Source of the DNA: an uncultured Alphaproteobacteria bacterium
Lineage (GTDB): Bacteria; Pseudomonadota; Alphaproteobacteria; HIMB59; GCA-002718135
Assembly: GCA_902605135.1 (NCBI GenBank)
Contig: CACLBK010000004.1
Location: forward strand, 1-55,469
DNA: 55,469 nucleotides
Direction of reading: 5' to 3'
Shown here: positions 31,147 through 49,862 of the stretch, piece by piece
Layout: each line of letters begins with the position of its first letter
Position numbering within the stretch: the stretch's first letter is position 1
Notes under the pieces: model-generated
Seen by the model: only the letters and a program-made list of their open reading frames with translations
The model's database searches: none
Told to the model about the DNA's origin: nothing
Program-made: the position numbers and the translations under genes

Positions 31147-32622
31147 ATGGGCAAAAAAGCAGTAGTTATAGGAAGTGGTTTTGGAGGCATTGCTATTAGC
31201 TTAAGACTAAAAAAATTAGGCTATGATACAACAATTATTGAAAAACTAGACGAGATTGGAGGAAGAGCAAGAGTTTTTGAAGTGAATGGTTTTAAACATG
31301 ATGCTGGACCAACAGTCATAACAGCACCATTTCTATTTGATGAACTTTTCAGTTTGTTTGGAAAAAAAAGAGAGAATTATTTGAATTTTGTTCCTCTTGA
31401 ACCATGGTATAGGTACTATTTTCATGATGGCAAAACATTTGATTATTGTTCTACAGTCGAAAAAACTAATATAGAAATTAGTAAATTTGATAAGAAAGAT
31501 ATAAAAGGATATAATAAACTTTTAAATCAATCAAAAAAAATATTTGATATAGGGTTTACACAATTAGCTGACAAACCATTTATTTCTTTTTTTAAAATGT
31601 TAGGAGTTATTCCTAATTTGATAATTTTGAGAAGTTATTTTACGGTATCTCAACTTGTAAATAGTTATCTAAAAAATCCATATCTTAGAAAAGCATTTTC
31701 AATTCATCCACTTTTAGTTGGAGGTGATCCACACACAACAACATCTATTTATGCTTTGATTCATTATTTAGAGAGAAAATGGGGAGTATTTTTTTGTATG
31801 GGTGGAACTGGTAAAATCGTATCTGAATTAAAACGATTAATGATTGATTGTGGTATTAAAATTAAAACGAACACAGAGGCAAAAGAATTTATTGTTGAAA
31901 ATAATAGGATAACAAAAATATTAACAAACAATGAAGAAATTTCCAATATAGATCTAGTTGTTTGTAATGCTGATCCACCCATGGTTTACTCCAAACTTTT
32001 AAAAAAACAAAATTTAAGTAGACCTGTATTAAAAGAAAAAAACTTATTGTATTCAATGGGACTTTTTGTTCTTTTCTTTGGTACGAAAAAACAATACCAT
32101 AAAGTAGCTCATCATACTATTTGGATGACCGAAAGATTTAAATCTTTACTTCATGATATATTTAAAAATAAAATTTTATCTGATGATTTTTCCTTGTACA
32201 TTCACAGGCCTACTGCAACAGACAAGTCATTTGCTCCAGAAGGTTGTGATAGTTTTTATGTTCTATGCCCAGTACCTAATTTACAAGGTAAAATTGATTG
32301 GAATGTTGAGTCAGAAAACCTTAAAAATAAGATTGTTAAAGAATTATCCCAGACAATTATGCCAGATTTGGAAAAGACTATTACAGATGTTTTTTGGATG
32401 AATCCTAAAGATTTTAAAAATGATTACAATTCTATGCACGGAGCTGGTTTTTCAATAGCTCCGATCTTTACACAGTCAGCTTGGTTTAGGTATCATAACA
32501 AAGATAAAAAAATTAAAAATCTATATTTTTCAGCGGCAGGTTCTCATCCAGGTGCAGGAATACCAGGAGTTCTTTCATCAGCTAAAGTTGTTGAAAACAT
32601 TATTAAAGCTGAATTAAAATAA
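31147..32622 (+). CDS. crtI: Phytoene desaturase CrtI
   Basis: CrtI introduces four double bonds into phytoene to give lycopene. The N-terminal FAD loop VVIGSGFGGIAISLRL and GGRARVFEVNGFKHDAGPTVI are typical of CrtI. The C-terminal signature NLYFSAAGSHPGAGIPGVL ends the FAD-binding domain. Length 491 aa is normal. It is the first gene of crtI-crtB-crtY-blh, with 2 nt to crtB, and is divergent from the ProX-like gene. Confidence 0.96.
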   Translation: MGKKAVVIGSGFGGIAISLRLKKLGYDTTIIEKLDEIGGRARVFEVNGFKHDAGPTVITAPFLFDELFSLFGKKRENYLNFVPLEPWYRYYFHDGKTFDYCSTVEKTNIEISKFDKKDIKGYNKLLNQSKKIFDIGFTQLADKPFISFFKMLGVIPNLIILRSYFTVSQLVNSYLKNPYLRKAFSIHPLLVGGDPHTTTSIYALIHYLERKWGVFFCMGGTGKIVSELKRLMIDCGIKIKTNTEAKEFIVENNRITKILTNNEEISNIDLVVCNADPPMVYSKLLKKQNLSRPVLKEKNLLYSMGLFVLFFGTKKQYHKVAHHTIWMTERFKSLLHDIFKNKILSDDFSLYIHRPTATDKSFAPEGCDSFYVLCPVPNLQGKIDWNVESENLKNKIVKELSQTIMPDLEKTITDVFWMNPKDFKNDYNSMHGAGFSIAPIFTQSAWFRYHNKDKKIKNLYFSAAGSHPGAGIPGVLSSAKVVENIIKAELK

Positions 32623-32624
32623 TA

Positions 32625-33506
32625 ATGATTGATTTAAAGCTCAATTCATCTGCTGACCTTAGAAAGGAAGGCAAAAGTTTTTATTGGGCAAGTTTTTTTT
32701 TACCAAAAAGTTATAAAGAAAATGCTGGTACTCTTTATTCAATTTGTAGATATTTTGATGACATTGCTGATAAATATAGTGAAGATCAAACTGTCTATCT
32801 TAAAAATTCAATTGAAGAAATAAGGACCAATAATAATAATAAAGTAAATATTTTTTTGAAAAAAAATAAAATTAACAATTTAATTTTTATAGATTTAATA
32901 GAGGGATTAATCTTAGATCAGAAAAAAATAAGAATTCAAAACAAGGAAGAACTTTTAAAATACTCCTATCATGTTGCTGGTACTGTTGGATTAATGATGT
33001 CTAAAATTATAGGAGTAAAACATGATAAGGCAGCACAATCCGCAATTGATTTAGGTATTGGAATGCAGCTAACAAATATAGCAAGAGATGTTTATGAAGA
33101 TTCTAAAATGAAAAGAATATATTTACCTGCCAATTGGATACCTGATATATCATTAAAAAATTTAGCTGATCCTTATAACAAAACTTCACAAAAAGATGAA
33201 AGAATATCAAATGCAATTCATGAAGTAATATGCCTTTCAGATAAGTTTTATGAAAATGGTTTTGCCGGTTTAAAATATATCCCGCTATCTACCAGATTAG
33301 GCATATTCATCGCGGCTAATATTTATAGAGGTATTGGCATTAAAATAAAATCCAATAAAAAAAAATATTTAAGAAAAAGAGTATATTTAAATTTATTCGA
33401 AAAATCTATAATTACATTTAAATCAATTTTACTTTTTATTTTTATCCCTTTTATGAAATATCAGTATCAAAAAATTAGAGATAATTTCCCAAATGAAAAT
33501 TTATAA
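32625..33506 (+). CDS. crtB: Phytoene synthase CrtB
   Basis: CrtB condenses two GGPP molecules to phytoene, the entry step of the pathway. The first aspartate-rich motif is in SICRYFDDIADKY (about residue 45). The second is in LTNIARDVYEDSKMKRIYLP (about 148), including the isoprenyl diphosphate synthase signature. Length 293 aa is normal. Its 3' end overlaps crtY by 14 nt. No GGPP synthase (crtE) is in the cluster, so it must be encoded elsewhere. Confidence 0.96.
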   Translation: MIDLKLNSSADLRKEGKSFYWASFFLPKSYKENAGTLYSICRYFDDIADKYSEDQTVYLKNSIEEIRTNNNNKVNIFLKKNKINNLIFIDLIEGLILDQKKIRIQNKEELLKYSYHVAGTVGLMMSKIIGVKHDKAAQSAIDLGIGMQLTNIARDVYEDSKMKRIYLPANWIPDISLKNLADPYNKTSQKDERISNAIHEVICLSDKFYENGFAGLKYIPLSTRLGIFIAANIYRGIGIKIKSNKKKYLRKRVYLNLFEKSIITFKSILLFIFIPFMKYQYQKIRDNFPNENL

Positions 33507-34575
33507 AGCTGCAATAATTGGTTTAGGCCCTAGTGGTTTAGCTGTAAATAAAATTCTTTACGGAGATAGCTATAACGAAATCATTGCATTTGAAAGTGAA
33601 GATATAAACAAAAGAGATAATATTTTTGGTTTTTGGTTAACAGATTGGATGAAGCCATTTGAAAAAATTATTGAAAAAAAATGGTACAAATGGACTATTG
33701 GTAACAAAAATACCCATGTAACACATACAAGTTTAGATAAACCTTATTGTGTCATTAGTTTTAAAACTTGGAAAAAATTTTGCTTAGAAACAAAAAATAA
33801 ATTAGAAATCATAAACAAACAAGTTGTCCAATATTTTCCTGAACAAAATTATTTTAAAATAATCACCACTGATGACAAAATATATTACGCTGAAAATATA
33901 TATGATTCACGATCAGCAAAAGAAAAAAAAGGTGAATTATTACAACATTTTTTTGGAGTTAATATTACCGTGGCAGATAATACTTTTAATGAAGATAAAT
34001 TAACCTTAATGCACTTTACTGAAGAAAATAATATTTTACATTTTATATACATCCTACCATTTAGTCACAACAAAGCGCTTGTTGAATCGACGGTCTTTTC
34101 AAAAGATGTTTTTCGCAGCTCCTGGTATAGAGAAAAAATAAATGATTACTTAAAGAAAAATAATATTAATAATTTTAAAGAAAATAGTTCAGAAAAAGGA
34201 GTAATACCAATGTTTTTTGCAGGGGAGAAAAGATCAGTTAATTCTAATATCTTCAATATTGGTATTAGAGGAGGTGCGTGCAAGCCTTCTACTGGATATG
34301 CCTTTTCATTTCTTATAAAACAAATTCAATTGTTAAAAAATTCAAAGAATAACCATGTAAATATCCATAATTTTTTAGAAAGAAAAATGGATAAAGTTTT
34401 TATTAATTTTTTAAAAAATAATAGAGAAGATGGAAGGTCATTTATAAAGCTCGCATCTAATCTAAATGGAAATGAATTTCAAAGTTTTATGATGGGTGAA
34501 TCAAATTTTCTAACTAAGTTAAAAATCATAAATAGTATGCCCAAGCTTCCTTTTATAAAAGAATTATTTAAATAA
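33493..34575 (+). CDS. crtY: Lycopene beta-cyclase CrtY
   Basis: CrtY closes both ends of lycopene to give beta-carotene. The nucleotide-binding loop AAIIGLGPSGLAVNKI starts at about residue 6. The CrtY-type blocks FGFWLTDWMKPFE and FNIGIRGGACKPSTGYAFSF (about 257) are clear. At 360 aa it is close to the bacterial CrtY length. One base separates it from blh, which cleaves its product. Confidence 0.92.
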   Translation: MKIYKAAIIGLGPSGLAVNKILYGDSYNEIIAFESEDINKRDNIFGFWLTDWMKPFEKIIEKKWYKWTIGNKNTHVTHTSLDKPYCVISFKTWKKFCLETKNKLEIINKQVVQYFPEQNYFKIITTDDKIYYAENIYDSRSAKEKKGELLQHFFGVNITVADNTFNEDKLTLMHFTEENNILHFIYILPFSHNKALVESTVFSKDVFRSSWYREKINDYLKKNNINNFKENSSEKGVIPMFFAGEKRSVNSNIFNIGIRGGACKPSTGYAFSFLIKQIQLLKNSKNNHVNIHNFLERKMDKVFINFLKNNREDGRSFIKLASNLNGNEFQSFMMGESNFLTKLKIINSMPKLPFIKELFK

Positions 34576-34576
34576 T

Positions 34577-35395
34577 ATGTTAGCCGACCTTACAATTCTA
34601 AATATTATTTCTTTTTTATTAATATTTTTCATTGGTCTTCCGCATGGTTCATTTGATGGTGCAGTTGCTTCCTTAGTAGGTTTTAGTAACAGAATTCAAT
34701 TTCTACAATTTATATTTTACTACCTAATTTTATTTTTTCTGGTCATTTTATTTTGGTTATATTTTCCTATTATTGCGCTAACGATTTTTATTATAATGAC
34801 TATTGCCCATTTTGGATTATGTGATTGGACAAATTTTAAAATAAATAAATATAAGTATTCTATAAGCTTTACTTATGGAATGACTATTATTTTTGGAATA
34901 ATATTTTTCAACGAGGATCAATCTTTTTTGATATTTGAATATCTGACAAATAATAATATTTACTCAATCCAAAAATATTTTTTCATCCCATATTTTTTAA
35001 CATTATTATCTATAATATATTTTATTTATCTTTCCTTTTTCGAAAAGAAATTACGAAAAGGAATTATTGAAATTCTATTTCTTTTACTAATTTTTTATTT
35101 TTTTGATCCATTGCTAAGTTTTGCAATATATTTCTGTTTTTTTCACACTTACAAACATTTAAAACATCTGATTAAAAATATTTATTTAAATTTAAAAAAT
35201 AAATACTTTGTTATTTACTCAACAATAATTTTTACAGTAATTTCTTGGATTGGAGGTTTAGGAATTGTTTACTATTTAGTTCAGAATTTATCATTATATG
35301 AGTCGATATTAAAAGTAATTTTCATTGGACTTGCTGCTTTAACGCTTCCTCATATGTTACTTGTTGATATTGTCTACAGAAGAAGATTTAAATAA
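34577..35395 (+). CDS. blh: Beta-carotene 15,15'-dioxygenase (Brp/Blh family)
   Basis: Blh cleaves beta-carotene symmetrically to two molecules of retinal, the chromophore of bacterial rhodopsins. This 272 aa membrane protein has about seven hydrophobic segments and the iron-ligating histidines of the family in GLPHGSFDGAV (about 18), TIAHFGLCDWT (about 76), FFHTYKHLKHL (about 193) and LTLPHMLLVD near the end. It closes the crtI-crtB-crtY-blh operon. No rhodopsin gene is in the window; one elsewhere in the genome is strongly implied. Confidence 0.94.
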   Translation: MLADLTILNIISFLLIFFIGLPHGSFDGAVASLVGFSNRIQFLQFIFYYLILFFLVILFWLYFPIIALTIFIIMTIAHFGLCDWTNFKINKYKYSISFTYGMTIIFGIIFFNEDQSFLIFEYLTNNNIYSIQKYFFIPYFLTLLSIIYFIYLSFFEKKLRKGIIEILFLLLIFYFFDPLLSFAIYFCFFHTYKHLKHLIKNIYLNLKNKYFVIYSTIIFTVISWIGGLGIVYYLVQNLSLYESILKVIFIGLAALTLPHMLLVDIVYRRRFK

Positions 35396-35738: not shown

Positions 35739-36566
35739 GTGCTCAAGAATATTTTTTTGGCTTCATATCCTAAATCTGGGAATACTTGGATGAGATCTTT
35801 AGTTGGAAGCCTTTATAATTTTGATAAAGAGTTTAGTCTAAATACACTAAAGTTAATACCACTATTATCAATTAAAAAAAACTTTGATGAATTTGAAAAT
35901 AAAATCTATTCTGACAATAATGTTTTAAATCTTGATTGGGTGTCCCAAAATATCATTGAATGCCAAAAAATACTAAATAAAAAGTCAAATCATTTAAATA
36001 TATTCAAAACCCATAGTGTTAAACATAAAAAATATACAAACGAAACTGTAAACGCAGGTTTCATTTACATTATAAGAGACCCTAGGGATGTAGTTGTTTC
36101 TTACAAAAATTTTAGTGGAAAAAGCTTTGATAAAGTTATTAATGAGCTTCTTTTTGAAGAAAAAAATATAATTAATTCAAACGGTGTTCCTGAACTACTT
36201 TCTACTTGGGAGTTAAATGTTTTATCATGGTTAAATTATAATACTGTACCCAGATTGATTATTAGGTATGAAGATGTAAAACTAAATATAAAACAAGTAG
36301 TTATAAAAATTATAGAATTTTTGAATAAAACACATAGAATAAAACTCAACCTAAGTGATGCAGACATGGATCAAATAATTAAAAATACTAATTTTAATAA
36401 TCTCCAAAAATTAGAAGAAAAATATGGTTTTGATGAATCCCCAAAAAATTCAAGATTTTTTCGTTTTGGAACCTCAAATCAATGGAAAGATATTTTATCG
36501 AAAACACAGGTTCAGCTAATAGAAAATAATTTACATACGTTAATGAAGCAATTTAATTATATTTAA
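35739..36566 (+). CDS. PAPS-dependent sulfotransferase domain protein
   Basis: This protein transfers sulfate from PAPS to an acceptor, probably a surface glycan or lipid. The 5'-phosphosulfate loop is IFLASYPKSGNTWMRSL at the very N-terminus, and the 3'-phosphate motif YIIRDPRDVVVSYKNF is near residue 112. A C-terminal GTSNQWKDIL segment also fits cytosolic-type sulfotransferases. Length 275 aa is normal. It starts with GTG at 35739, which places the PAPS loop right at the N-terminus. It stands alone between tRNA-Gly and a tRNA-Ser remnant, so it looks like an inserted cassette. Confidence 0.9.
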   Translation: MLKNIFLASYPKSGNTWMRSLVGSLYNFDKEFSLNTLKLIPLLSIKKNFDEFENKIYSDNNVLNLDWVSQNIIECQKILNKKSNHLNIFKTHSVKHKKYTNETVNAGFIYIIRDPRDVVVSYKNFSGKSFDKVINELLFEEKNIINSNGVPELLSTWELNVLSWLNYNTVPRLIIRYEDVKLNIKQVVIKIIEFLNKTHRIKLNLSDADMDQIIKNTNFNNLQKLEEKYGFDESPKNSRFFRFGTSNQWKDILSKTQVQLIENNLHTLMKQFNYI

Positions 36567-36884: not shown

Positions 36885-37658
36885 TTAACCATGATAAACG
36901 TCAAAGTAACTGTCTTTATAATTGAATATAATAGGTCTTAGATACAAACAATTAGAATTAAAAATTATTGAGTTCATATTAGATACCTCTAGTATAAGTG
37001 ACTGTCTTTTACCTAAATAAAATTTTTTATTATCAATATCAATATTAATGATATTTTCTGTAGGGTTAGCAAAAAATAATTCAGTCTTTGTAAAATCTTT
37101 AAAATAATTCTGTATTTTATATTTTTGTCTATTTAAGCTTGTTTTTATAATATCATGTGATTTTAATTTATTATGTAATTCAATATTATCAGACTTAGCA
37201 TAGGTATTACCATGAACAAATGAATATAAATTATTGTTTTTTGAATATCCAACATAACACCTGTTAGAAATTATGGTCTCCCTGTTAACCTCACTATTAG
37301 TTTTGTGAAATATATAAAAGACTCCATAATCCTCTATACCATCAAGCAATTTACTGTTGATTTCTAATGTGTTTGAATAATTCAGCTCCTTAATTTCTAA
37401 TTTTTTAATTAATATATTTTCTTTGTTATAAAAGCTTAAAAAAACAGTTGAGTCTTTTATTCCATAAAATAATCCTAGAATATCTGAGTATTTGAAAATT
37501 GTTTTAAAACCTTGATCAGTTCTCCAACAAAAGGAATCACTTATGCTTTTTGGTGTATTAATTTCATTTAGTGAAACTTTTAATTGTCTAAACTTAATTA
37601 AGTTTCTAAAAAAAACTATTATATTTGCATTAAATATTTTTTTAACTAATGATTTCAC
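36885..37658 (-). CDS. Hypothetical protein, last gene of the surface-glycan operon
   Basis: I do not recognise this 257 aa protein. No signal peptide, membrane helix or nucleotide-binding loop is visible. The composition is rich in Asn, Lys, Ile, Phe and Tyr, and the alternating pattern suggests mostly beta structure. Notable segments are CYVGYSKNNNLYSFVHGNTY in the middle and LRPIIFNYKDSYFDVYHG at the end, which look like conserved blocks. It overlaps the preceding gene by 17 nt, so the two are probably functional partners. The context (aminotransferase, epimerase, glycan gene) suggests synthesis or modification of a surface polysaccharide. Confidence 0.7.
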   Translation of the reverse strand: MKSLVKKIFNANIIVFFRNLIKFRQLKVSLNEINTPKSISDSFCWRTDQGFKTIFKYSDILGLFYGIKDSTVFLSFYNKENILIKKLEIKELNYSNTLEINSKLLDGIEDYGVFYIFHKTNSEVNRETIISNRCYVGYSKNNNLYSFVHGNTYAKSDNIELHNKLKSHDIIKTSLNRQKYKIQNYFKDFTKTELFFANPTENIINIDIDNKKFYLGKRQSLILEVSNMNSIIFNSNCLYLRPIIFNYKDSYFDVYHG

Positions 37659-38403
37659 TTATCTCTCTTTTTAATTTTGATATTATTTTAAATTTGTCAT
37701 TACTCATTATATACTCATGCGGAGGATGAGTGTGCTCAAATGACATGTGCATATTGTCAATTGAAACAAAAAGTGGCGCACCTAGATATTTGTCAGTGAT
37801 TAAGTATATCTCAGGTTTGATTAGTTCATTATTAACATTAATTGAATTTGTATAGTTTGTTCTTAGTTCAATTTTCTCTACAATTTTTTTCTTTTCAATG
37901 TTTACAAAAAATAGGTTAAATTTCTTTTGAATTGGTTCTTCATAGATGTTTTTTATAAAAATAATATTTTCTTTTGCATTTTTATTAAGTAGTACTGATA
38001 CTGGACTAAGTATGCTTCCTTTTTTTAAAACCATATCAAATGGGTACTCTGACTGAAAAGATGAAAATCCCCCATTTCTAATACTGATTTTTAAATTTGA
38101 CCTATAAGCAGGAAAAGTGTCAGTAAAAGTATTAAGTTTTTTTAATTTATATTTATCAAATTTCTCTATTTCATTTTCTTGAGCTAAAAAAAAAATATTT
38201 TCATTATCTGACAATACTTCATTAATTGAATAAAATTCTTCATTTATTACATTATCATTTAATATTTCAAGATTCCACTTTGAGTCTTTAATTGCCACCT
38301 TGCACAAAAGATGTTTTTCACTATTTTTGCCATCATTTTTAAATCTTGCAATTGTTAGATTAGAAAATATATTTTCAGTTTTTATTCCAAAAAAGAAATT
38401 CAT
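37642..38403 (-). CDS. Hypothetical protein, fourth gene of the surface-glycan operon
   Basis: An unrecognised 253 aa protein, probably cytosolic, with no signal peptide or membrane segment. A central block NGGFSSFQSEYPFDMVLKKG and a histidine-rich block SFEHTHPPHEYIM near the C-terminus look like motif regions; the cluster of three His could bind metal. The region between them appears beta-sandwich-like. It overlaps the next gene by 17 nt and follows the 461 aa glycan gene after 56 nt. The pairing with 36885-37658 is its most useful clue. Confidence 0.7.
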   Translation of the reverse strand: MNFFFGIKTENIFSNLTIARFKNDGKNSEKHLLCKVAIKDSKWNLEILNDNVINEEFYSINEVLSDNENIFFLAQENEIEKFDKYKLKKLNTFTDTFPAYRSNLKISIRNGGFSSFQSEYPFDMVLKKGSILSPVSVLLNKNAKENIIFIKNIYEEPIQKKFNLFFVNIEKKKIVEKIELRTNYTNSINVNNELIKPEIYLITDKYLGAPLFVSIDNMHMSFEHTHPPHEYIMSNDKFKIISKLKREISEIIS

Positions 38404-38459
38404 ATTTAAGTATATTTAAAATAGTTTTAAAATAATTAATATATATATTTTAACTATAA

Positions 38460-39845
38460 TTAGTTTTTTATTATATCATCAAAAAATTCATTAAAGTCTA
38501 TTTTATTTTTGTTCAAATCAAGTGTTTTTCCGAAACTTTTCAAATTATAAGTATATAAATGTTTAGATACTTTTCTTGCTTGAATATTAGGCCAAATAGT
38601 TTCACTGTAGACCTCAAAAGACGGGTTAACACATAATTGTACAAAACTAATTTTTTTTTCTAAAAGTTCAATAACTAATGCTGACGGTCCAATCACAATA
38701 GAGTTTCTTAGTCCTTCATTATTTTTAAATTTATTTTTATGTTTCATTAAAATTTTATTTATTTTGGCCATCATTTTAATATGATGAGGATTATCTATTT
38801 GAGAAGGGTGTATTTTTACAGTTAGTTTTAATAAAGAAAAATCTTTAGCTATATTAAGATAACTATCTATTGTGTTTAAAATTATTTTTTCAGAGAAAAT
38901 TATATATGGAAGGTAAACGCAATTTAAGATTTCATCATTTGATTTATTTGTAAACTTTTGAGATGATATTTTTCTTACCTTATTAAGGTCCCAATTTAAG
39001 AATGTTTGTAAATAAAACAATTGATCATCTCCATTTACCAATAATACATCAGGAGAACCAACTCTATATAAAAGACTTGTGGGAATAGGTGGCAAAGAAC
39101 TATGATATCCAACTGTTACTATATTATTATATTTCTTCTTAAATAGAAATGTAACATTATGAAGAAAAGGTTGACCCTCATATGGAAAAGCAGCTAATTT
39201 AAAGTTCCCACCAATTATTTCATCAAAAAAAAATTCTGCAAAGTATCTTGAAAAAAAACTATCTACAAATATTTCATGTTTAATACTTTTTATTGAATAT
39301 CTATTTTGTTTTAAAATTTTTAAAATTGTTTTAATTAAAAATACAAAGCTGTATTTTTTATTTTTATTTTTATATAATATTCTTACATTGTGATTTAAAT
39401 TTTTTGGGAATTTATTATCAACAGAAGTTAAAAACCATAATATCGAAGTACAATTACCTGAATTTAAATTAAAGTTATTATCAAAAAAGTTTCCATCTTC
39501 ATCAAAGCTTGATGCAGTACAGTTTGAGATTATAACCTTGTTATATAATGAATTTTCTTGCCTTCTATTTGCCAAAGAATAATCATTATATTTAGCTATA
39601 GATAGTAAATTTTTTGATAATAAGAATAAATATTTTGGAAGATATAAGTACCCTGATGAAAATAATTTTAATTTAGCATAACCCATATTTGGAAACCAAC
39701 TGCTAAAAAAACAAAGAGAACTTGTTCCTGAGTTAATTAGTTTTGCTTCGGTTTTATTTACATAGTCTTTAGCAAATTTTAATAATTTTACTTGATTATT
39801 TCCAATATCCATTCTTTCATATTTTAATCTAAAGTATTTAGCCAA
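38460..39845 (-). CDS. Surface-carbohydrate biosynthesis protein, GT-B-like (tentative)
   Basis: A 461 aa protein with no membrane segment. The C-terminal half has features of GT-B-type capsule or LPS transferases: the repeated-strand region IVTVGYHSSLPPIP, DVLLVNGDDQ, the signature KIHPSQ (about 350), and SIVIGPSALVIELLEKK followed by a conserved-looking end. These recall surface carbohydrate biosynthesis proteins that resemble CDP-glycerol glycerophosphotransferases. The N-terminus could instead start at the ATG at residue 12 (MDIGNNQ). It overlaps the epimerase gene by 22 nt. Donor and acceptor are unknown. Confidence 0.55.
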   Translation of the reverse strand: MAKYFRLKYERMDIGNNQVKLLKFAKDYVNKTEAKLINSGTSSLCFFSSWFPNMGYAKLKLFSSGYLYLPKYLFLLSKNLLSIAKYNDYSLANRRQENSLYNKVIISNCTASSFDEDGNFFDNNFNLNSGNCTSILWFLTSVDNKFPKNLNHNVRILYKNKNKKYSFVFLIKTILKILKQNRYSIKSIKHEIFVDSFFSRYFAEFFFDEIIGGNFKLAAFPYEGQPFLHNVTFLFKKKYNNIVTVGYHSSLPPIPTSLLYRVGSPDVLLVNGDDQLFYLQTFLNWDLNKVRKISSQKFTNKSNDEILNCVYLPYIIFSEKIILNTIDSYLNIAKDFSLLKLTVKIHPSQIDNPHHIKMMAKINKILMKHKNKFKNNEGLRNSIVIGPSALVIELLEKKISFVQLCVNPSFEVYSETIWPNIQARKVSKHLYTYNLKSFGKTLDLNKNKIDFNEFFDDIIKN

Positions 39846-40750
39846 TTATTAAAATTGGTTACACCATCAACTAGTTTTGTACTTGGTTTAAACTTTAATT
39901 TATTCTTGATTTTGTTAATGTTTGCTGATGATCCTTTAAAGTCACCTGGTGTTCCTGGTAATTCATTTATAACAATTTTTTTGTTTAATACTTTTGATAT
40001 TACTTTCAATAAATCTGAAATTTTGGTTGCTTTTCCTGACCCAACATTAAAGATTTGGTTAAAATGCTTTGTATCCTTAGCACACATTTCCCAGGCATCT
40101 AGAACATCTTCTACATAAACCAAATCTCTAAATCGATCCAAACTTCCTTTTATATTTACAACATCTTGATTTCTGGCCATATTTAAAAAAATACTAACCA
40201 TTCCCAAATCTGGATTTTTTGGATTTTGGCCAGGTCCATAAACATTAAACATTCTAAGAATATTCCATTTTATATTAAAAATATTACAACATATCTGAAC
40301 ATATTTTTCTGCAGTATATTTTGAAAGTGCATAAGGAGATTTAGGATCACACTCACTAATTTCGGACAATTTACCAGACTTATCGATAGTCTCTTTATAA
40401 ACATTAAATGTAGACGCATAAATTATTTTTTTAACTTTGTTTTCTTTACTCCAATTTATTAAATTATAAGTACTAACAATGTTAGACTCATAATCTAAAT
40501 CTGTTCTTTTAAATGATACTGCTTGTGACGGCTGCCCTGCACAATGAAGTAACACGTCAATGTTTTTAATCTTAATATTCATCAGTTTTTTTTTATTAGA
40601 GAGATCAATTAAATAAGTTTTTATATTTTTATTATTTTTGAAATTTTTATTTTTTTTTATATCAAAAATTAATATTTTATTTTTTTTTGCTAGTCTTTTT
40701 GCTAGTTTACTTCCTATGAAGCCAGATCCACCAGTTATTAATATTCTCAT
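39824..40750 (-). CDS. NAD-dependent nucleotide-sugar epimerase/dehydratase (extended SDR)
   Basis: An extended short-chain dehydrogenase of the GalE/RmlB type that acts on a nucleotide sugar. The NAD loop ILITGGSGFIGSKLAKRL opens the protein. The catalytic Ser and Tyr-x-x-x-Lys are in IYASTFNVYKE and SPYALSKYTAEKY (about 133-146), and FNVYGPGQNPKNPD is typical of the sugar-binding part. Length 308 aa is normal. Whether it epimerises or dehydrates cannot be told. It overlaps the aminotransferase gene by one base and the next gene by 22 nt, so it is part of a tight operon. Confidence 0.9.
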   Translation of the reverse strand: MRILITGGSGFIGSKLAKRLAKKNKILIFDIKKNKNFKNNKNIKTYLIDLSNKKKLMNIKIKNIDVLLHCAGQPSQAVSFKRTDLDYESNIVSTYNLINWSKENKVKKIIYASTFNVYKETIDKSGKLSEISECDPKSPYALSKYTAEKYVQICCNIFNIKWNILRMFNVYGPGQNPKNPDLGMVSIFLNMARNQDVVNIKGSLDRFRDLVYVEDVLDAWEMCAKDTKHFNQIFNVGSGKATKISDLLKVISKVLNKKIVINELPGTPGDFKGSSANINKIKNKLKFKPSTKLVDGVTNFNNWLNTLD

Positions 40751-41817
40751 TATTTTTTACTTAAAAATATCTTTATTCTTTTAATTAAGATATTCATAAT
40801 ATTTTTTGGTCCACAAGTAATTAAAATATAATTTTCTAATGGAGATTTGTAATTACCTTTAACATATATTTTATTTTTAAGTAAATAATTATATAATTTT
40901 GAAGCAGTTTCTTTTGTTTCAAGACCCACAAGTAAATAATTACCTTTTCTTCCATTAACTTTTAATCCAAGCTCAATTAATTTTTTCTTAGTATACTCTC
41001 TTCCTTCGATGACTTTATTAATATATTTTTCTACCTTTCTAAAATTTTCCATTAAATATATTGCTACTTCATCTGTAAAAAGATTACTTTCATAAGCTAA
41101 CCTTGTTTTAGACAGAAATTCTATATTTTTAGAGTCTGAAACTAAGAAGCCTAATCTAATAGATGGTACCCCAAATCCTTTAGAAAATGTTCTAAGTATA
41201 ATTAAGTTTTTGTGTTTTTTTACAAGAGGTAAAGAGGACTTTATACCAAAATGATAGTATGCTTCATCTATAACAATATATGCTCCATTTTTTTTTGCAT
41301 ATTCACACAATGATGATATTTCTTTTAATGTTAAATTATCTTCAATTGGTTGATTTGGGTTAGGAAGAAATAAAATTTTTGGTTTTCTTTTAAGAAATTT
41401 AAATAATTTTTTTCTATCTAATCTGAGAGATTTCGAATCATATTGAATAATTTCTAAATTGGTATCATAAATATTACTATATACTTCATACATTGCGTAC
41501 GAGGGGCCAATTAAACCAATTAAAGTTCCAGGCTTTGTTAATACTTCCCAAATTGTCTTAATAGCCCCATCTATTCCTGAGGTAACCAATAATTTTTCTT
41601 CATCTATATCAAAAAATTCTGATATTTTTTCATATATTTTTGAGTTGTCTGGATAAGAACCTAACTGATATTTTTTTAGCTTCGAGAATATTTTAATGTA
41701 TATGTTTTTTTCCCAGTCTTGAACTCTTTCATTTCTATTTAATCTTAATCCATTAATTAAGTCTCTGTTTTCAGGAATTCTTAATCTTTTGATTTTTGTT
41801 AATTTTTTTATATCCAT
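40750..41817 (-). CDS. HisC-like class I/II PLP aminotransferase in a glycan operon
   Basis: A fold-type I PLP enzyme closest to histidinol-phosphate aminotransferase. The PLP phosphate-binding region is LVTSGIDGAIKTIWE. The Asn in FLPNPNQPIEDN, the Asp/Tyr in IVIDEAYYHFG and the Schiff-base Lys in ILRTFSKGFGVPSIRLG (about 220) are all present. Length 355 aa is normal. Its place as first gene of the operon aminotransferase-epimerase-glycan gene-two unknowns, rather than in the his cluster, argues for a sugar-related or amino-acid-decoration role. HisC proper is expected elsewhere in the genome. Confidence 0.82.
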   Translation of the reverse strand: MDIKKLTKIKRLRIPENRDLINGLRLNRNERVQDWEKNIYIKIFSKLKKYQLGSYPDNSKIYEKISEFFDIDEEKLLVTSGIDGAIKTIWEVLTKPGTLIGLIGPSYAMYEVYSNIYDTNLEIIQYDSKSLRLDRKKLFKFLKRKPKILFLPNPNQPIEDNLTLKEISSLCEYAKKNGAYIVIDEAYYHFGIKSSLPLVKKHKNLIILRTFSKGFGVPSIRLGFLVSDSKNIEFLSKTRLAYESNLFTDEVAIYLMENFRKVEKYINKVIEGREYTKKKLIELGLKVNGRKGNYLLVGLETKETASKLYNYLLKNKIYVKGNYKSPLENYILITCGPKNIMNILIKRIKIFLSKK

Positions 41818-42226: not shown

Positions 42227-43057
42227 ATGAATGTTTTAGATTTCACAAAAACAATAGATGAAATTACGAAATTAAAAAAAGAAAAAGATTTTAAATTTTC
42301 AAAACTTGCAGATTTATTCAACCTTCCATCAGTAAATGGAATATGTGAACTTTATTTTAATAATTATCCATTTTACATGCTTAACATAGCAAATGATGAT
42401 GCTGTAGTACTTAAGTATTTATGGAGAAATTTTTATGAAGAACTTTCCTTAAATCTTTGGTATAAAATTACAAGAAAAGACGGGGTTTTTTTTGATATAG
42501 GTTCACACACAGGTATTTACTCCATAATTGGTAATTTAAACAACGCCAAAAATAAAATAGTTTCTGTAGAAGCATTTTTTTTAAATTATTCTAGATTATT
42601 AACAAACTTAAAAATAAATAAAATTAACACTAATAATTGCTTTTTAGCTGCAGCCTCTAATGAAAATGGGATTGCTAAATTTAAAGTAAAAACTCCACAA
42701 GGATACCATAGTTCAGGAGGAAAAATATCTGAGAATGGTAAATACAATGTATCTAAAATAAAAATCGATGATTTTAATTTAGACAGAGAAGTTAAGGGTA
42801 TTAAAATCGACACGGAAGGTCATGAATACCAAGTCATAGAAGGCTCAAAGAAAATTATCAATAAAGATAATCCTGATATTATATTTGAAATAAATGAACA
42901 ATCTTTTGACAAGTCTATAAATTTTTTAAAACAATATAAATACCATTTTTATTTTTTAGATGAGATTAATAAAAAATTTGAGAAAGTAGATAAATTTCAA
43001 AATAATTTACTAAGACCTGAGGGTTCAAATTGTGTTGCAACAGTAAATGAAATATAG
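42227..43057 (+). CDS. FkbM-family S-adenosylmethionine methyltransferase
   Basis: An FkbM-type O-methyltransferase of 276 aa. The SAM-binding loop GVFFDIGSHTGIYSII starts near residue 86, followed by IVSVEAFFLNYSRLLTNL. The family signature IKIDTEGHEYQVIEGS is near 197 and PDIIFEIN follows. In bacterial surface-polysaccharide regions these enzymes commonly methylate sugar residues, which is the likely role here. It is a single gene on the plus strand, flanked by a decayed gene and by a convergent glycosyltransferase. Confidence 0.9.
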   Translation: MNVLDFTKTIDEITKLKKEKDFKFSKLADLFNLPSVNGICELYFNNYPFYMLNIANDDAVVLKYLWRNFYEELSLNLWYKITRKDGVFFDIGSHTGIYSIIGNLNNAKNKIVSVEAFFLNYSRLLTNLKINKINTNNCFLAAASNENGIAKFKVKTPQGYHSSGGKISENGKYNVSKIKIDDFNLDREVKGIKIDTEGHEYQVIEGSKKIINKDNPDIIFEINEQSFDKSINFLKQYKYHFYFLDEINKKFEKVDKFQNNLLRPEGSNCVATVNEI

Positions 43058-45433: not shown

Positions 45434-45586
45434 TTAATTTTTTAAATTAAAATATTTTTTAATAATATTTACAGTTTTTATAATTCTTATATGATGTTGC
45501 TTAAAATTTTTTCTACCAGAGGCAATTTTTGGATAATTTTCCAGTAGAATTTTCAAATAATTAGGAAGTTTAGTTTTATTTTTCAA
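45434..45586 (-). CDS. Possible 50-aa protein coupled to purH
   Basis: Not in the ORF track. A TTG at 45586 overlaps the TGA of the purH C-terminal frame (ATTGA) and opens a 50-codon frame, MKNKTKLPNYLKILLENYPK and onward, ending in TAA at 45434. The sequence is basic and helical in character, with IASGRKNFKQHHIRII in the middle. The stop/start overlap is typical of coupled genes in this window. It could also be a random frame or a gene scrap at the island border. Confidence 0.3.
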   Translation of the reverse strand: MKNKTKLPNYLKILLENYPKIASGRKNFKQHHIRIIKTVNIIKKYFNLKN

Positions 45587-46500
45587 TGTTTAAATAGTCT
45601 ATTTTTAATAAAGTATAATGATATTTGATTTCTATTAGAAAAAGAAATTATTTTTTTATCATTAATTGATCCACTTGGTTGGGCTAATGCACTACACCCA
45701 CGTCTTTTTAACAAACGGATACTATCAGTAAATGGAAAAAAACCATCAGAGGCACAAACAAAATAATTATTTATAAAATATTTATTCATATTCTTTATAG
45801 CAACTTTTAGTGCATCAACTCTATTTGTATTTCCATGACCCAAACCAAGTGTTTGTTTATTCCTACTTAAAACAATTGCATTCGACTTTAAATGTTTCGC
45901 AACTTTTAATGAAAAAATTAAATCATTAACTAATTTTAACGAGACTTTTTTACCTGATTGTAGTTCAAGAAATTTTTTGTTTATTTTTTCTAAATCTACT
46001 GTTTGATAAAGATCACCAAAAAGGGTTGATCTATGTTCTATGATTTGTTTTCTTAATTTTGGTAACTTTAGAATAATTAAACTTTTCTTTTTTTTTAAAA
46101 TAGTTAATGCATTTTTATCGAAACTTGGAGCTACTATCATTTCAAAAAAATGTTCAGATATATATTTAGCTAATTTAAAGTTTACTTTTCTGTTTAATAA
46201 AACTATTCCTCCAAAAGCACTTATAGGATCACTTTTATATGATTTAAGAAAAGCAGATCTAATATTTTTATCTGATGCTACTCCACAGGGATTAGTATGT
46301 TTGATAATTATCGAGGTAGGATCCTGAAATTCAGCTAAACATTTTAAACCACTATCCAGATCAATTAAATTATTGTAACTAATTTCCTTGCCACTTATCT
46401 GATAGCTAAAAACAGATTTTTGAGAATTTTCAATCAGATATGCATTTTGATTAGGGTTTTCACCATACCTTAATTTCATTCTTATATCTTTATTTTTCAT
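45583..46500 (-). CDS. purH: PurH C-terminal part: AICAR formyltransferase domain (split purH)
   Basis: This 305 aa frame covers the AICAR transformylase domain, which formylates AICAR with 10-formyl-THF. Family blocks are KLRYGENPNQNAY, IIKHTNPCGVA with the catalytic Lys-His, SDPISAFGGIVLLN, ASDGFFPFTDSI, and an end like the usual RHFRH (NRLFKH). Two normally invariant blocks differ: GHGNTNRVDAL for GAGQMSRVDS and AQPSGSIND for IQPGGSIRD. It begins 11 nt inside the IMP-cyclohydrolase frame; removing one A from an A5 run at the junction would restore one continuous PurH. It is a broken or naturally split gene. Confidence 0.88.
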   Translation of the reverse strand: MKNKDIRMKLRYGENPNQNAYLIENSQKSVFSYQISGKEISYNNLIDLDSGLKCLAEFQDPTSIIIKHTNPCGVASDKNIRSAFLKSYKSDPISAFGGIVLLNRKVNFKLAKYISEHFFEMIVAPSFDKNALTILKKKKSLIILKLPKLRKQIIEHRSTLFGDLYQTVDLEKINKKFLELQSGKKVSLKLVNDLIFSLKVAKHLKSNAIVLSRNKQTLGLGHGNTNRVDALKVAIKNMNKYFINNYFVCASDGFFPFTDSIRLLKRRGCSALAQPSGSINDKKIISFSNRNQISLYFIKNRLFKH

Positions 46501-47086
46501 TTAACCATTTTGAAATAGAATTGTCATATTTTGAAATTTCCTTATAACTTTTTTGGGCCATTTTTTTTCTAAATTCAATATCAGTGATGCCATTATTTTT
46601 ATTTAAATTTTTTATTAATTTTTTATAATCAGTCTGATCCATTATTGGGGTAATATATTTAAAATTTTTGCCAGCAGCTCTTAACAAACTTGGTCCACCA
46701 ATATCAATCATTTCTATAATATTATCATTATTTTTTTTTAAAGATTTTTCAAATGGGTATAAATTCACAACAACAATATCGATTACTGGCATTTTTAATG
46801 TCTTAAATTGTTTTAAATGTAATTTATTATCTCTAACGAAAAGTAATGAACTATAAATCAATGGATTTAGTGTTTTAACTCTCCCATCAAACATTTCCTT
46901 ATATTTTGTTAACCTAGAAATATCTTTACATGGAAAACCCATGCTTCTTATTTTCTTACCTGTTGAGCCACTTGATATAAAATTATAATTGAATTTATTC
47001 AAATTTTCACAAAGATACTTTAAATTCTTTTTGTCAAATACTGATATTAATGCATATTTTCTTTTTAGATTTTTTCTAACGACCAT
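46490..47086 (-). CDS. purH: PurH N-terminal part: IMP cyclohydrolase domain (split purH)
   Basis: This 198 aa frame is the IMP cyclohydrolase (MGS-like) domain, which closes FAICAR to IMP, the last purine step. Blocks are ALISVFDKKNLKYL, FISSGSTGKKIRSMG, MFDGRVKTLNPLIY, VVNLYPFEKSL and IDIGGPSLLRAAGKNF. It ends in TAA at 46490, exactly where normal PurH continues into the transformylase domain. It overlaps the heparinase-like gene by 22 nt. The rsmB-heparinase-purH order is conserved in alphaproteobacteria, so this is the native purH locus rather than an imported copy. Confidence 0.9.
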   Translation of the reverse strand: MVVRKNLKRKYALISVFDKKNLKYLCENLNKFNYNFISSGSTGKKIRSMGFPCKDISRLTKYKEMFDGRVKTLNPLIYSSLLFVRDNKLHLKQFKTLKMPVIDIVVVNLYPFEKSLKKNNDNIIEMIDIGGPSLLRAAGKNFKYITPIMDQTDYKKLIKNLNKNNGITDIEFRKKMAQKSYKEISKYDNSISKWLNEK

Positions 47087-48597
47087 TTTTTTATAGTTTT
47101 TTTGTCTGATAATATACCCTTAATTACTATTTGTTTAGTAAGTTTGGTAATATTATTATCAACTAAAACACTATCCTCTATTATTAATTCTGCATCACAT
47201 TTAAATAACCAGATATTATTTAATTTAGTCTTCAAAATTATATTTCTTTTGTTATTTGTAAAATTAAGAACCATTTCATCTGCTAGGTGAAATCTAATAT
47301 GGTAGATTAATCTATTTTTGTTTTCTTTGAATGAAATAAAACTATCTTCACCTTTTATAATATTTGTTTTTTTACTTATTATTAATTTTCTTTTAATTAT
47401 TTTATTAAATTTTTTTAAATATCCATTATGTGAACCTTCTAATACCTCTTCTTCAGAGTTTATTTCTTTTCTAAAAGCCACTGACTGAGGAAAACGAATA
47501 TGAGGATTACCTTCTTTTATCTCGCTAATATTAGTGTTTTGTAAAACTATAGTTGAGTGAGCTGCACTATATTTTAAGTATTCTGGATTTTTACCAAAAC
47601 TTTCTGAAGCACCACAATTAGTAAATATTTTTTCATTAAAACCACTTAACTCGATGGACAGAGTTCCAGCACTTAAATTAGAACTTATTATATCCTTATT
47701 TGGTTGAACTATATCAAAAAAAATTTTTTTACTCTTATCAGAATAAAAAGCTATGCCATTGTCTACATTTATAAATTCTCTTTTTTTTAAATATCTTTCT
47801 TTATTAAGTAAATTGTAGATATTTTTTGTATAAATATTATTTGATCCATTAAATAATGGTATAGTTCCATCATAATGAAAGTATTCATTTAATATTGATG
47901 TCATTTTTAAAATAATTTCATCAAATACATAATTTTTTTTTGATTTAAAAAATAATAAAATATTTTTTGCTTCATTAAGATTATTTATAAATTTAGAATG
48001 TTCTAATATATTGTAGCTTTTGTGCATTCCCAATTTATCTATTTGTTTTTCAACAATAAATTTAATATAATTGATTTTATGTTCATTAATTTTTTTTGTT
48101 ATCAAACAAGACAATAAATATGCAATAAAATCAAATGAAGTTAATTGATTTATTTTTTTATTATTAAAATCAAATATAACTCTTTGAATGTGAAAAAAAA
48201 TAATTGCGTCTAACTTATTTTTATCATTTATTTTTGACGAAGAGTTTATGTATTCATAATTATACAAAAGGTTTATTAATCTTTTAGACTGTAAATCTTC
48301 TAACCAAGGAAAGCCTAGCTTATTTTTATATATTTGGTACCAACCAAATATAGCATCCTTAGATAATTTAATTCCAATTTTACCACCAAGCTTATTAGAA
48401 AAATTCAAAAAATCAAATGTATGAATATTTTTATTTTTGCTAATATAAAATTTTTTTTTAAAAATAAATAGTTTTACTTGTTTATAGTTTGTAAAATCAA
48501 TTTGTTTAAAATTAAGTTCTAAAAAAGATAAATTTTTTTTAGATTTTAATCTTGAAAGTATAAATACAAAAAATACTTTTTTAAATAGAGTAATCAT
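47065..48597 (-). CDS. Heparinase II/III family protein
   Basis: A 510 aa protein with the alphaproteobacterial heparinase II/III-like architecture. A helical alpha/alpha-barrel part is followed by the beta-sandwich domain beginning near residue 290, with LSAGTLSIELSGFNEKIFTN, YSAAHSTIVLQN and GSHNGYLKKFNKIIKRKL. Family members are polysaccharide lyases, but this syntenic copy next to rsmB and purH has no proven substrate. No signal peptide is obvious: the N-terminus is basic with only a short hydrophobic run (FVFILSRL). It overlaps rsmB by 4 nt and purH by 22 nt. Confidence 0.85.
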   Translation of the reverse strand: MITLFKKVFFVFILSRLKSKKNLSFLELNFKQIDFTNYKQVKLFIFKKKFYISKNKNIHTFDFLNFSNKLGGKIGIKLSKDAIFGWYQIYKNKLGFPWLEDLQSKRLINLLYNYEYINSSSKINDKNKLDAIIFFHIQRVIFDFNNKKINQLTSFDFIAYLLSCLITKKINEHKINYIKFIVEKQIDKLGMHKSYNILEHSKFINNLNEAKNILLFFKSKKNYVFDEIILKMTSILNEYFHYDGTIPLFNGSNNIYTKNIYNLLNKERYLKKREFINVDNGIAFYSDKSKKIFFDIVQPNKDIISSNLSAGTLSIELSGFNEKIFTNCGASESFGKNPEYLKYSAAHSTIVLQNTNISEIKEGNPHIRFPQSVAFRKEINSEEEVLEGSHNGYLKKFNKIIKRKLIISKKTNIIKGEDSFISFKENKNRLIYHIRFHLADEMVLNFTNNKRNIILKTKLNNIWLFKCDAELIIEDSVLVDNNITKLTKQIVIKGILSDKKTIKKWSLEKI

Positions 48598-49862
48598 TTT
48601 ATTCTTTTCAGAAAACTAGCAAAAAAACCATCTATTTGATTTTCATGGATATTATCTGGTAAAGTTAACATAAAATTATCTTTTATTAGTTTTGAATATT
48701 TAATATTATTTTTTTTTAATTTATAATTATAAAGTAAAAAGTTTGAGTTTTTTTTCAGAAACTTATGAATTTGATCAATAGTTTCTACTTTTAGAAAGGA
48801 ACAGGTCATGTAAACTATATACCCATCTTTACTTACTAATCGTGAGGCTTTTTCAAGCATTTTTTCTTGTAAGTTAATGAGTTCAACAAAATCTGGTGGA
48901 TCTTTTTTGAAAAATATCTCAGGATTTTTTCTTATTGTGCCAATAGAAGAACAAGGGGAGTCAATTATAATTGTATCAAACATTTCTTTTTCATCAAATG
49001 TTGTGAAATCTTTATTTAATATTTTATTACTAAAATTTAATCTCTCTAAGTTAATTTTAAGAGTTCGAGATCTTTTTTGGCTTTTATCATTTAAAACAAC
49101 ATTTAAGTTTCTTGAAATTAGTTGAAAAGATTTTCCTCCAGGAGCAGCACAAGCATCTAAAATTTTTTGATTTTTATCTTCAAATTCAAAATTATCTAAA
49201 GGAAGAAAGGAGCTAAAATCTTGTACCCACCAATCACCATCTATAAATGATTTTTTATTTGTAATATCTTTTTTATCTACTAAAAAACCTGATAGTTCTG
49301 AAGTTTTTATCAAGCCGTCTTCAAAACTATTTAATTTTTCATTATTTTTAAAAACGATATGAATATCTGGCTCTTTATAAAAATTATTTAAAAATAATCT
49401 CTTTTCAAACAATGTTAATGTATCAGTCCTTTTTTGAAACCATGATGGTAATTCTTCATATTGAATGTTAATTTTTTTTAGTTCATTTTTATCTTTTGCA
49501 ATTTTTTTTAATGAAGCATTAATTAAACCTGGATACAATTTTAACTTTTTTGCTATTTCTACAGAGCAATTTATTACAGCATATTCTTTAAAATCTAAAA
49601 AAACAATTTGAGTTATTGCACTTATTAACAAAATTCTCTCATGATCTCTTATTTTTTTTTTTATAAATTTATTTATTATTTTTAATGTATGGAAATGTAA
49701 TCTCATCGAATTTAATAAAACATTAAATAAAAGAGAGAGATCTTCTTTTTTCTGTTTATCTAAAATTTTTTTAATAGATGAGTTTTTTAACGTTTTGTTA
49801 AATTTATAAATTGAAAATAAAATATTATGAATGTCAAATCTAATCTTTTCACCTTTAATCAT
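48594..49862 (-). CDS. rsmB: 16S rRNA (cytosine-967-C5)-methyltransferase RsmB
   Basis: RsmB methylates C967 of 16S rRNA. An N-terminal NusB-like RNA-binding domain (about 1-140) is followed by a Rossmann SAM domain. The SAM loop is LDACAAPGGKSFQLI (about 242), the first Cys motif DSPCSSIGTIRKNPEI (about 305) and the catalytic Cys motif VYMTCSFLKVE (about 356). Length 422 aa is normal. It is the first gene of rsmB-heparinase-purH and is divergent from tdk across 70 bp. Confidence 0.94.
   Translation of the reverse strand: MIKGEKIRFDIHNILFSIYKFNKTLKNSSIKKILDKQKKEDLSLLFNVLLNSMRLHFHTLKIINKFIKKKIRDHERILLISAITQIVFLDFKEYAVINCSVEIAKKLKLYPGLINASLKKIAKDKNELKKINIQYEELPSWFQKRTDTLTLFEKRLFLNNFYKEPDIHIVFKNNEKLNSFEDGLIKTSELSGFLVDKKDITNKKSFIDGDWWVQDFSSFLPLDNFEFEDKNQKILDACAAPGGKSFQLISRNLNVVLNDKSQKRSRTLKINLERLNFSNKILNKDFTTFDEKEMFDTIIIDSPCSSIGTIRKNPEIFFKKDPPDFVELINLQEKMLEKASRLVSKDGYIVYMTCSFLKVETIDQIHKFLKKNSNFLLYNYKLKKNNIKYSKLIKDNFMLTLPDNIHENQIDGFFASFLKRIK

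Follow-up and report, generated by a model that had tools for sequence, protein, structure and literature searches.

In O-antigen export, WbdD acts as a chain-terminating kinase/methyltransferase and the carbohydrate-binding domain of Wzt reads the resulting cap (PMC3482155, PMC9445017). Members of the ASRT/ASRAH superfamily (PF07100) have been argued to bind sugars and carry as their hallmark an Asn, conserved almost without exception, where strand 2 ends (PMC2739507), and the capsule aminotransferase Cj1437 of Campylobacter jejuni makes serinol phosphate for capsule decoration (PMC12409886). In alphaproteobacteria of the HIMB59/AEGEAN-169 type, hypervariable islands related to lipopolysaccharide have been described (PMC10734472, PMC10308909). 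Here we analyzed a stretch of 55,469 nucleotides (the whole of which we call the window; contig CACLBK010000004.1 of assembly GCA_902605135.1) from an uncultured alphaproteobacterium of the HIMB59 lineage, a streamlined marine bacterium with a genome of 1.16 Mb that is 68% complete. The window carries a run of five glycan-type genes, the last two of which encode proteins that we call B and A, and the unit conserved among genomes is this B-A pair, not the five-gene operon. In order of transcription, the five genes are:

40750-41817, minus strand: pyridoxal phosphate (PLP) aminotransferase of the HisC fold, 355 aa, of a putatively accessory subfamily
39824-40750, minus strand: extended short-chain dehydrogenase/reductase (SDR) of the nucleoside diphosphate (NDP)-sugar epimerase/dehydratase type, 308 aa (PF01370, 2.3e-44, 152 bits)
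38460-39845, minus strand: putative GT-B-like surface carbohydrate protein, 461 aa, TTG start, assigned as a glycosyltransferase by eye
37642-38403, minus strand: B protein, first gene of the B-A pair, 253 aa, with an N-terminal beta region and a C-terminal beta-sandwich carrying EHTHP
36885-37658, minus strand: A protein, second gene of the B-A pair, 257 aa, GTG start, overlapping the end of B by 17 nt

An earlier reading of the bare sequence (hereafter the original prediction) had described these genes as packed on one strand with a single gap of 56 nt and overlaps of 1, 22 and 17 nt, which the coordinates of the open reading frames (ORFs) match exactly. Their GC content of 22-26% is close to the 27% of the window, so there is no strong compositional sign of recent import.

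B and A as a paired family

Both ~255-aa proteins had been taken as unrecognised, and this held: none of Pfam, NCBIfam and the PDB (by sequence) gives a credible match to B or A, and neither matches a known glycan enzyme. The motif blocks picked out at the same time are real, since EHTHP is invariant in 25 B proteins (the second Pro of the HTHPP block being kept in 23/25) and RP.IF.Y....D..H is kept in 24 A homologues.

In a sample of 100 further genomes, most of them drawn from the genus and order of the window, B was present in 6 and A in the identical 6. The genome collection yielded four more B-A loci (three labelled Pelagibacteraceae/Pelagibacter and one, a single amplified genome, labelled gammaproteobacterium), and in the order Pelagibacterales B was found in 15/397 genomes, one of them the L016 genome already counted. 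In all, 24 loci besides the window encode both proteins, distributed over Pelagibacterales, the window's order and the single amplified genome labelled gammaproteobacterial, and this recurrence identifies B and A as genuine coding genes. At 25/25 loci (window included) the two genes are adjacent on one strand in the order B then A with overlapping frames. The overlap is as a rule 4-29 nt; it seems larger in L015 and L071, probably through an upstream alternative start. The B gene of L018 is frameshifted, and what looked like a 1769-aa fusion of A at L075 was discarded as the product of a run of N in the assembly that interrupts A.

Broad class and phylum samples contained no further convincing relative of either protein, the one weak match having internal stops. 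A phage or plasmid gene was rejected as well, no relative being found in viral contigs, phage records or plasmids at the sensitivity of the sequence searches used. Given these searches, B-A appears to be a family confined so far to a few streamlined marine lineages.

The tree of the joined B and A proteins separates two deep subfamilies (support 100/100), the first mostly from Pelagibacterales together with the window pair and the gammaproteobacterial-labelled single amplified genome, the second mostly from the window's order together with one Pelagibacterales genome; separate trees of A and B both show the same two-way split. The closest relatives of the window pair lie in other orders, with 48-56% identity for B and 38-45% for A, against only 24-31% identity to pairs of its own genus and order. 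As the subfamilies cross orders and the A and B trees agree, the pair was probably transferred between orders as a unit.

Co-occurrence with the upstream genes

The original prediction had grouped all five genes into a single pathway that would yield an amino- or amino-acid-decorated sugar, and the tight same-strand packing in the window speaks for it. To assess co-occurrence, we inspected the fetched flanks of the 24 other pair loci, and here the grouping broke down: B and A do not co-occur with the three upstream genes, a relative of the HisC-like gene being near 0/24 and one of the GT-like gene near 1/24. The only pair genome with weak relatives of these genes is G1035 (27% identity for the GT-like and 35% for the HisC-like protein, within ~16 kb), and having both in one such stretch is the other point in favor of a single pathway. 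Against it, the nearest HisC-like relatives (34-41% identity) belong to G1248, G018 and G087, genomes not seen with B-A (no match to the pair in G018 and G087, both searched; G1248 was not searched for it). On a short contig of G1248, HisC-like and SDR genes are adjacent, each 42% identical to its counterpart in the window, and are followed by a DegT-type aminotransferase and an SDR. HisC and SDR thus recur there as a two-gene module of their own, and in the window the HisC-like, SDR and GT-like genes appear to form a sugar-supply module independent of B-A and upstream of it by chance. A null of independent shuffling of island genes fits the upstream trio and does not fit B-A. A single five-gene pathway is thus very improbable.

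Methyltransferases next to the pair

The placing of B and A in a surface-glycan setting was borne out at the other loci, where neighboring genes encode SDRs, CMP-Kdo-synthetase-type cytidylyltransferases, DAHP-synthase-type (KdsA-like) enzymes, glycosyltransferases and hexapeptide transferases, families typical of surface-glycan islands. Within these islands, FkbM-type methyltransferases are associated with B-A: they account for 11/89 genes within +-2 positions of the pair and 0/203 genes farther away at the same loci (Fisher p = 1.3e-6, a value that overstates certainty given that the loci are not phylogenetically independent), and four Methyltransf_24 proteins show the same closeness. As the FkbM count relied on a model built from the same clusters, we rechecked it with Pfam on unselected neighbors, which gave PF05050 in 11/86 near genes versus at most 2/149 at distance 3-6. 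An FkbM or Methyltransf_24 gene is found near the pair in 12/24 loci, on either side of B-A, on the same strand in 14/15 cases and usually overlapping or within 42 nt, and this difference in arrangement among loci argues for repeated association. FkbM-domain methyltransferases (PF05050) of surface-glycan clusters are in this sense a recurrent direct neighbor of B-A and not a homologue.

Proposed function of B-A

Our leading reading, held tentatively, is that B-A may be an obligate two-subunit cytoplasmic module that recognises or presents the nascent end of a surface glycan, with a methyltransferase in many loci. B and A would be subunits of one obligate heteromeric protein, co-made by translational coupling. 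They would stay in the cytoplasm (neither has an evident signal peptide by eye), where the basic N-terminal helix of A (residues 2-20, with R18 and N19 invariant) could rest on the inner membrane. Their beta-sandwich modules would bind to the surface glycan while it grows on its lipid carrier, or to the residue at its end, and at many loci the pair would act with an FkbM/Methyltransf_24 methyltransferase dependent on S-adenosylmethionine that modifies this glycan, B-A presenting or recognising the chain end for methylation or release. Strict pairing and overlapping frames support a single B-A complex, and both the glycan-island setting and the methyltransferase association favor a surface glycan as its target. 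We also counted in favor the beta-sandwich architecture of both structure models, the ASRT-type fold hint for B and the possible counterparts of the ASRT Asn in the two proteins. The loci establish the family, its strict pairing and overlap, the glycan-island context and the association with methyltransferases; from these we infer complex formation, glycan binding and cooperation in capping.

The split proposed here, with a methyltransferase altering the end of the glycan and a beta-sandwich protein reading it, is like that between WbdD and Wzt in role only: B-A has no sequence relation to either and is a free-standing two-gene pair that comes without a demonstrated ABC exporter. Neither A nor B has a Pfam match to PF14524 (Wzt_C), and none turned up in the genomes of the 25 pairs, many of which are incomplete, so that no standard cap reader was seen and this role is left unfilled.

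Predicted folds and alternative functions

We modeled both proteins with AlphaFold2 (AF2) from five sequences each (pLDDT 66 and pTM 0.68 for B, pLDDT 69 and pTM 0.71 for A). The model of A has two eight-strand blocks (42-149 and 178-256), each closing on an invariant His (H149 in VHGN, H256 in D..H), and that of B has an N-terminal beta region followed by a C-terminal sandwich closing on the invariant EHTHP. A common origin of A and B, or of the two sandwiches of A, was examined and set aside, the profile comparison being unconvincing (P 0.01-0.1); the one hint of it is that all these modules close on an invariant His.

Weak Foldseek matches were obtained to sandwich domains of GH2 enzymes, to cupin enzymes and, for B, to the ASRT-type protein TM1070, the latter (PDB 1nc7) being the best domain-sized match (probability 0.92, TMt 0.40, E 0.04, 90 columns, 4.7 A). 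B-A may resemble ASRT/ASRAH proteins in its predicted eight-strand beta-sandwiches, an invariant Asn at a strand end and S..P(I) near the domain end, but differs in lacking profile similarity and the hallmark N-terminal Trp and in being multi-module and encoded by paired genes. Candidates for the hallmark Asn are N198 of A (24/24, after strand 191-197) and N152 of B (25/25, after strand 145-151), which fit only if their strands correspond to strand 2; the first module of A has D/N59. None of the three modules has an invariant Trp at its start; W43 of B is kept in 22/25 but lies in the N-terminal region. Neither protein has a PF07100 Pfam match, and hhalign against one ASRT sequence, a weak test, gave E 0.92 and 0.63. 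With the hallmark Trp absent and the profile comparison negative, neither A nor B was assigned to the superfamily.

The cupin matches bear on the main alternative, that B-A is a two-subunit tailoring enzyme whose composite, possibly metal-binding site, built from H224, H226 and E223 of B and H118, H149, D253 and H256 of A, acts on an NDP-sugar or the nascent glycan, for example as an isomerase, a dioxygenase-like enzyme or in acyl/phosphate transfer. This is possible but rather doubtful. Many polar residues are invariant in both proteins, partner genes vary among loci as expected of a self-contained enzyme, and the weak structural matches include 3-hydroxyanthranilate dioxygenase, pirin, YlbA and KduI for A and YcfD and cysteine dioxygenase for B. 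The TM-scores of these cupin-type matches are only 0.14-0.23, however, and the association with methyltransferases would need a separate explanation. The motif does not fit either. Cupins are defined by motif 1, G(X)5HXH(X)3-4E(X)6G, with motif 2 after it, and although HTHPPHE of B resembles HXH(X)3E, the Glu after HXH is kept in 18/25 proteins and the required glycines are missing (Gly218 in 5/25, Gly237 in 1/25), while B ends before any motif 2. Cupin membership was rejected on this basis.

The beta-sandwich architecture and the basic N-terminal helix of A, together with the highly variable neighbors, would also suit a scaffold or chaperone for membrane-bound enzymes of glycan polymerisation that makes no contact with the glycan, the adjacent methyltransferases then reflecting gene order in recombining cassettes. 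We consider this unlikely, as polar residues are invariant across two deep subfamilies and the methyltransferases cluster within +-2 positions both before and after the pair, not on a single side.

Several points weigh against a glycan-end module. The models are of modest confidence, and no Foldseek match has a convincing whole-chain TM-score; the dense invariant His, Asp, Glu and Arg residues could equally mean catalysis. Half of the pair loci have no methyltransferase nearby (several of them are truncated), and in the window itself 3.8 kb separate the FkbM gene from B-A, which is encoded on the other strand. O-antigen ligase-type (Wzy_C) genes also occur near the pair and no Wzm/Wzt transporter is in evidence, so these cells may use a Wzy-type route, which does without a chain-terminating cap.

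The three upstream genes

Of the identities given by the original prediction, the HisC-like and SDR families stood, whereas the 461-aa protein is without a family match by sequence. The HisC-like protein belongs to the class I/II aminotransferases (PF00155, 8e-38), with the SK-G PLP-lysine motif and a match to PDB HisC 1h1c (2e-26), but scores 208 bits against TIGR01141, under the equivalog cut-off of 276.55, and is therefore not placed in the HisC equivalog. It is 38-41% identical to its G018/G1248 relatives versus ~25% to the common HisC-type match. Judged by score and distribution, the gene is best taken as an accessory copy, separate from the HisC-type genes that are widespread in related genomes. 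Cj1437, a capsule-cluster aminotransferase whose substrate is a small phosphorylated ketone, offers a precedent and a possible model; the window differs in having no recognised amide-forming or phosphatase partner. In three related genomes, at L086 (2884-4675), L087 (2854-4636) and L088 (5279-7059), an arrangement different from that of the window, a CTP_transf_3 cytidylyltransferase directly precedes the HisC-like gene, which suggests a pathway activating an amino compound by cytidine triphosphate (CTP).

The SDR exceeds the gathering score of PF01370 and falls below all NCBIfam equivalog cut-offs among those listed; its closest PDB chain is the UDP-glucose 4-epimerase 4zrm (3e-38). The 461-aa protein has no glycosyltransferase match by sequence in Pfam, NCBIfam, PHROGs or the PDB, and the single relative found is the 27%-identical protein of G1035.

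Other genes in the window and at other loci

Two genes of the window flank the run:

42227-43057, plus strand: FkbM-domain methyltransferase (PF05050, 7e-17), divergent from the HisC-like gene
35739-36566, plus strand: sulfotransferase (PF00685, 2e-27), convergent with the B-A pair

The FkbM protein falls in the same sequence cluster (c5) as the methyltransferases flanking B-A elsewhere, and a sulfotransferase likewise adjoins the pair in L076. Further glycan-type neighbors in the window are a DUF6716 glycosyltransferase-like protein (weak, under the cut-off) and a 2-oxoglutarate (2OG)-Fe(II) oxygenase. This region sits between a carotenoid/retinal cluster (crtI-crtB-crtY-blh, 31147-35395) and purH-heparinase-rsmB (45583-49862). 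From the retinal cluster, a rhodopsin gene is to be expected in another part of the genome. The purH gene (45583-47086) is in two overlapping ORFs of different frames (46490-47086 and 45583-46500) with PF01808 divided between both, by a genuine split, a frameshift or an error of assembly. Beside it (47065-49862) lie rsmB and a heparinase II/III-like gene, a gene order found in alphaproteobacteria; together with the low GC, it fits a streamlined alphaproteobacterium, probably of the HIMB59/AEGEAN-169 type, better than the gammaproteobacterial SAR86.

Three further arrangements were observed at other loci:

L019:52-4411, L022:10387-14749, L024:6586-10952 and partly L080:3865-5940: conserved run immediately next to B-A of a KdsA-like (DAHP-synthase-type) enzyme, a CBS-domain protein, an HpcH/HpaI-type aldolase, two SDRs and a CMP-Kdo-synthetase-type cytidylyltransferase
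L017:1326-3919, L071:1-2228, L084:8612-11211 and L089:2108-4808: consecutive SDR, CMP-Kdo-synthetase-like and 3-dehydroquinate-synthase-like genes
L023:6017-7432, L022:14746-16152, L024:10939-12375, L079:8579-9970, L080:5921-7333 and L083:1131-2537: family of 463-478 aa proteins at several pair loci, the L022 copy without a Pfam match

The first looks like a pathway to a CMP-activated, possibly unusual ulosonic acid, the second is a possible CTP-activated cyclitol or ketosugar module, and the third is perhaps another unrecognised glycosyltransferase.

Significance for streamlined marine bacteria

Few cells in the ocean are as abundant as streamlined bacteria of the SAR11 and similar types. Surface glycans, which are plausible phage targets, are encoded in some of the most variable regions of their genomes. 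With some reserve, we think it possible that B-A is a new obligately paired family, a glycan-end recognition or tailoring complex working with FkbM methyltransferases and exchanged among distant streamlined marine bacteria. The earlier reading is corrected to the extent that the unit to study is B-A plus the methyltransferase and not the five-gene operon. As a conserved, unannotated two-protein module tied to methyltransferases, the pair gives a handle on chemistry described by no library searched here, and its small size and expressibility make it a suitable target for structure determination and binding assays. If B-A is indeed a glycan-end complex, it would possibly determine surface type, and hence phage susceptibility.

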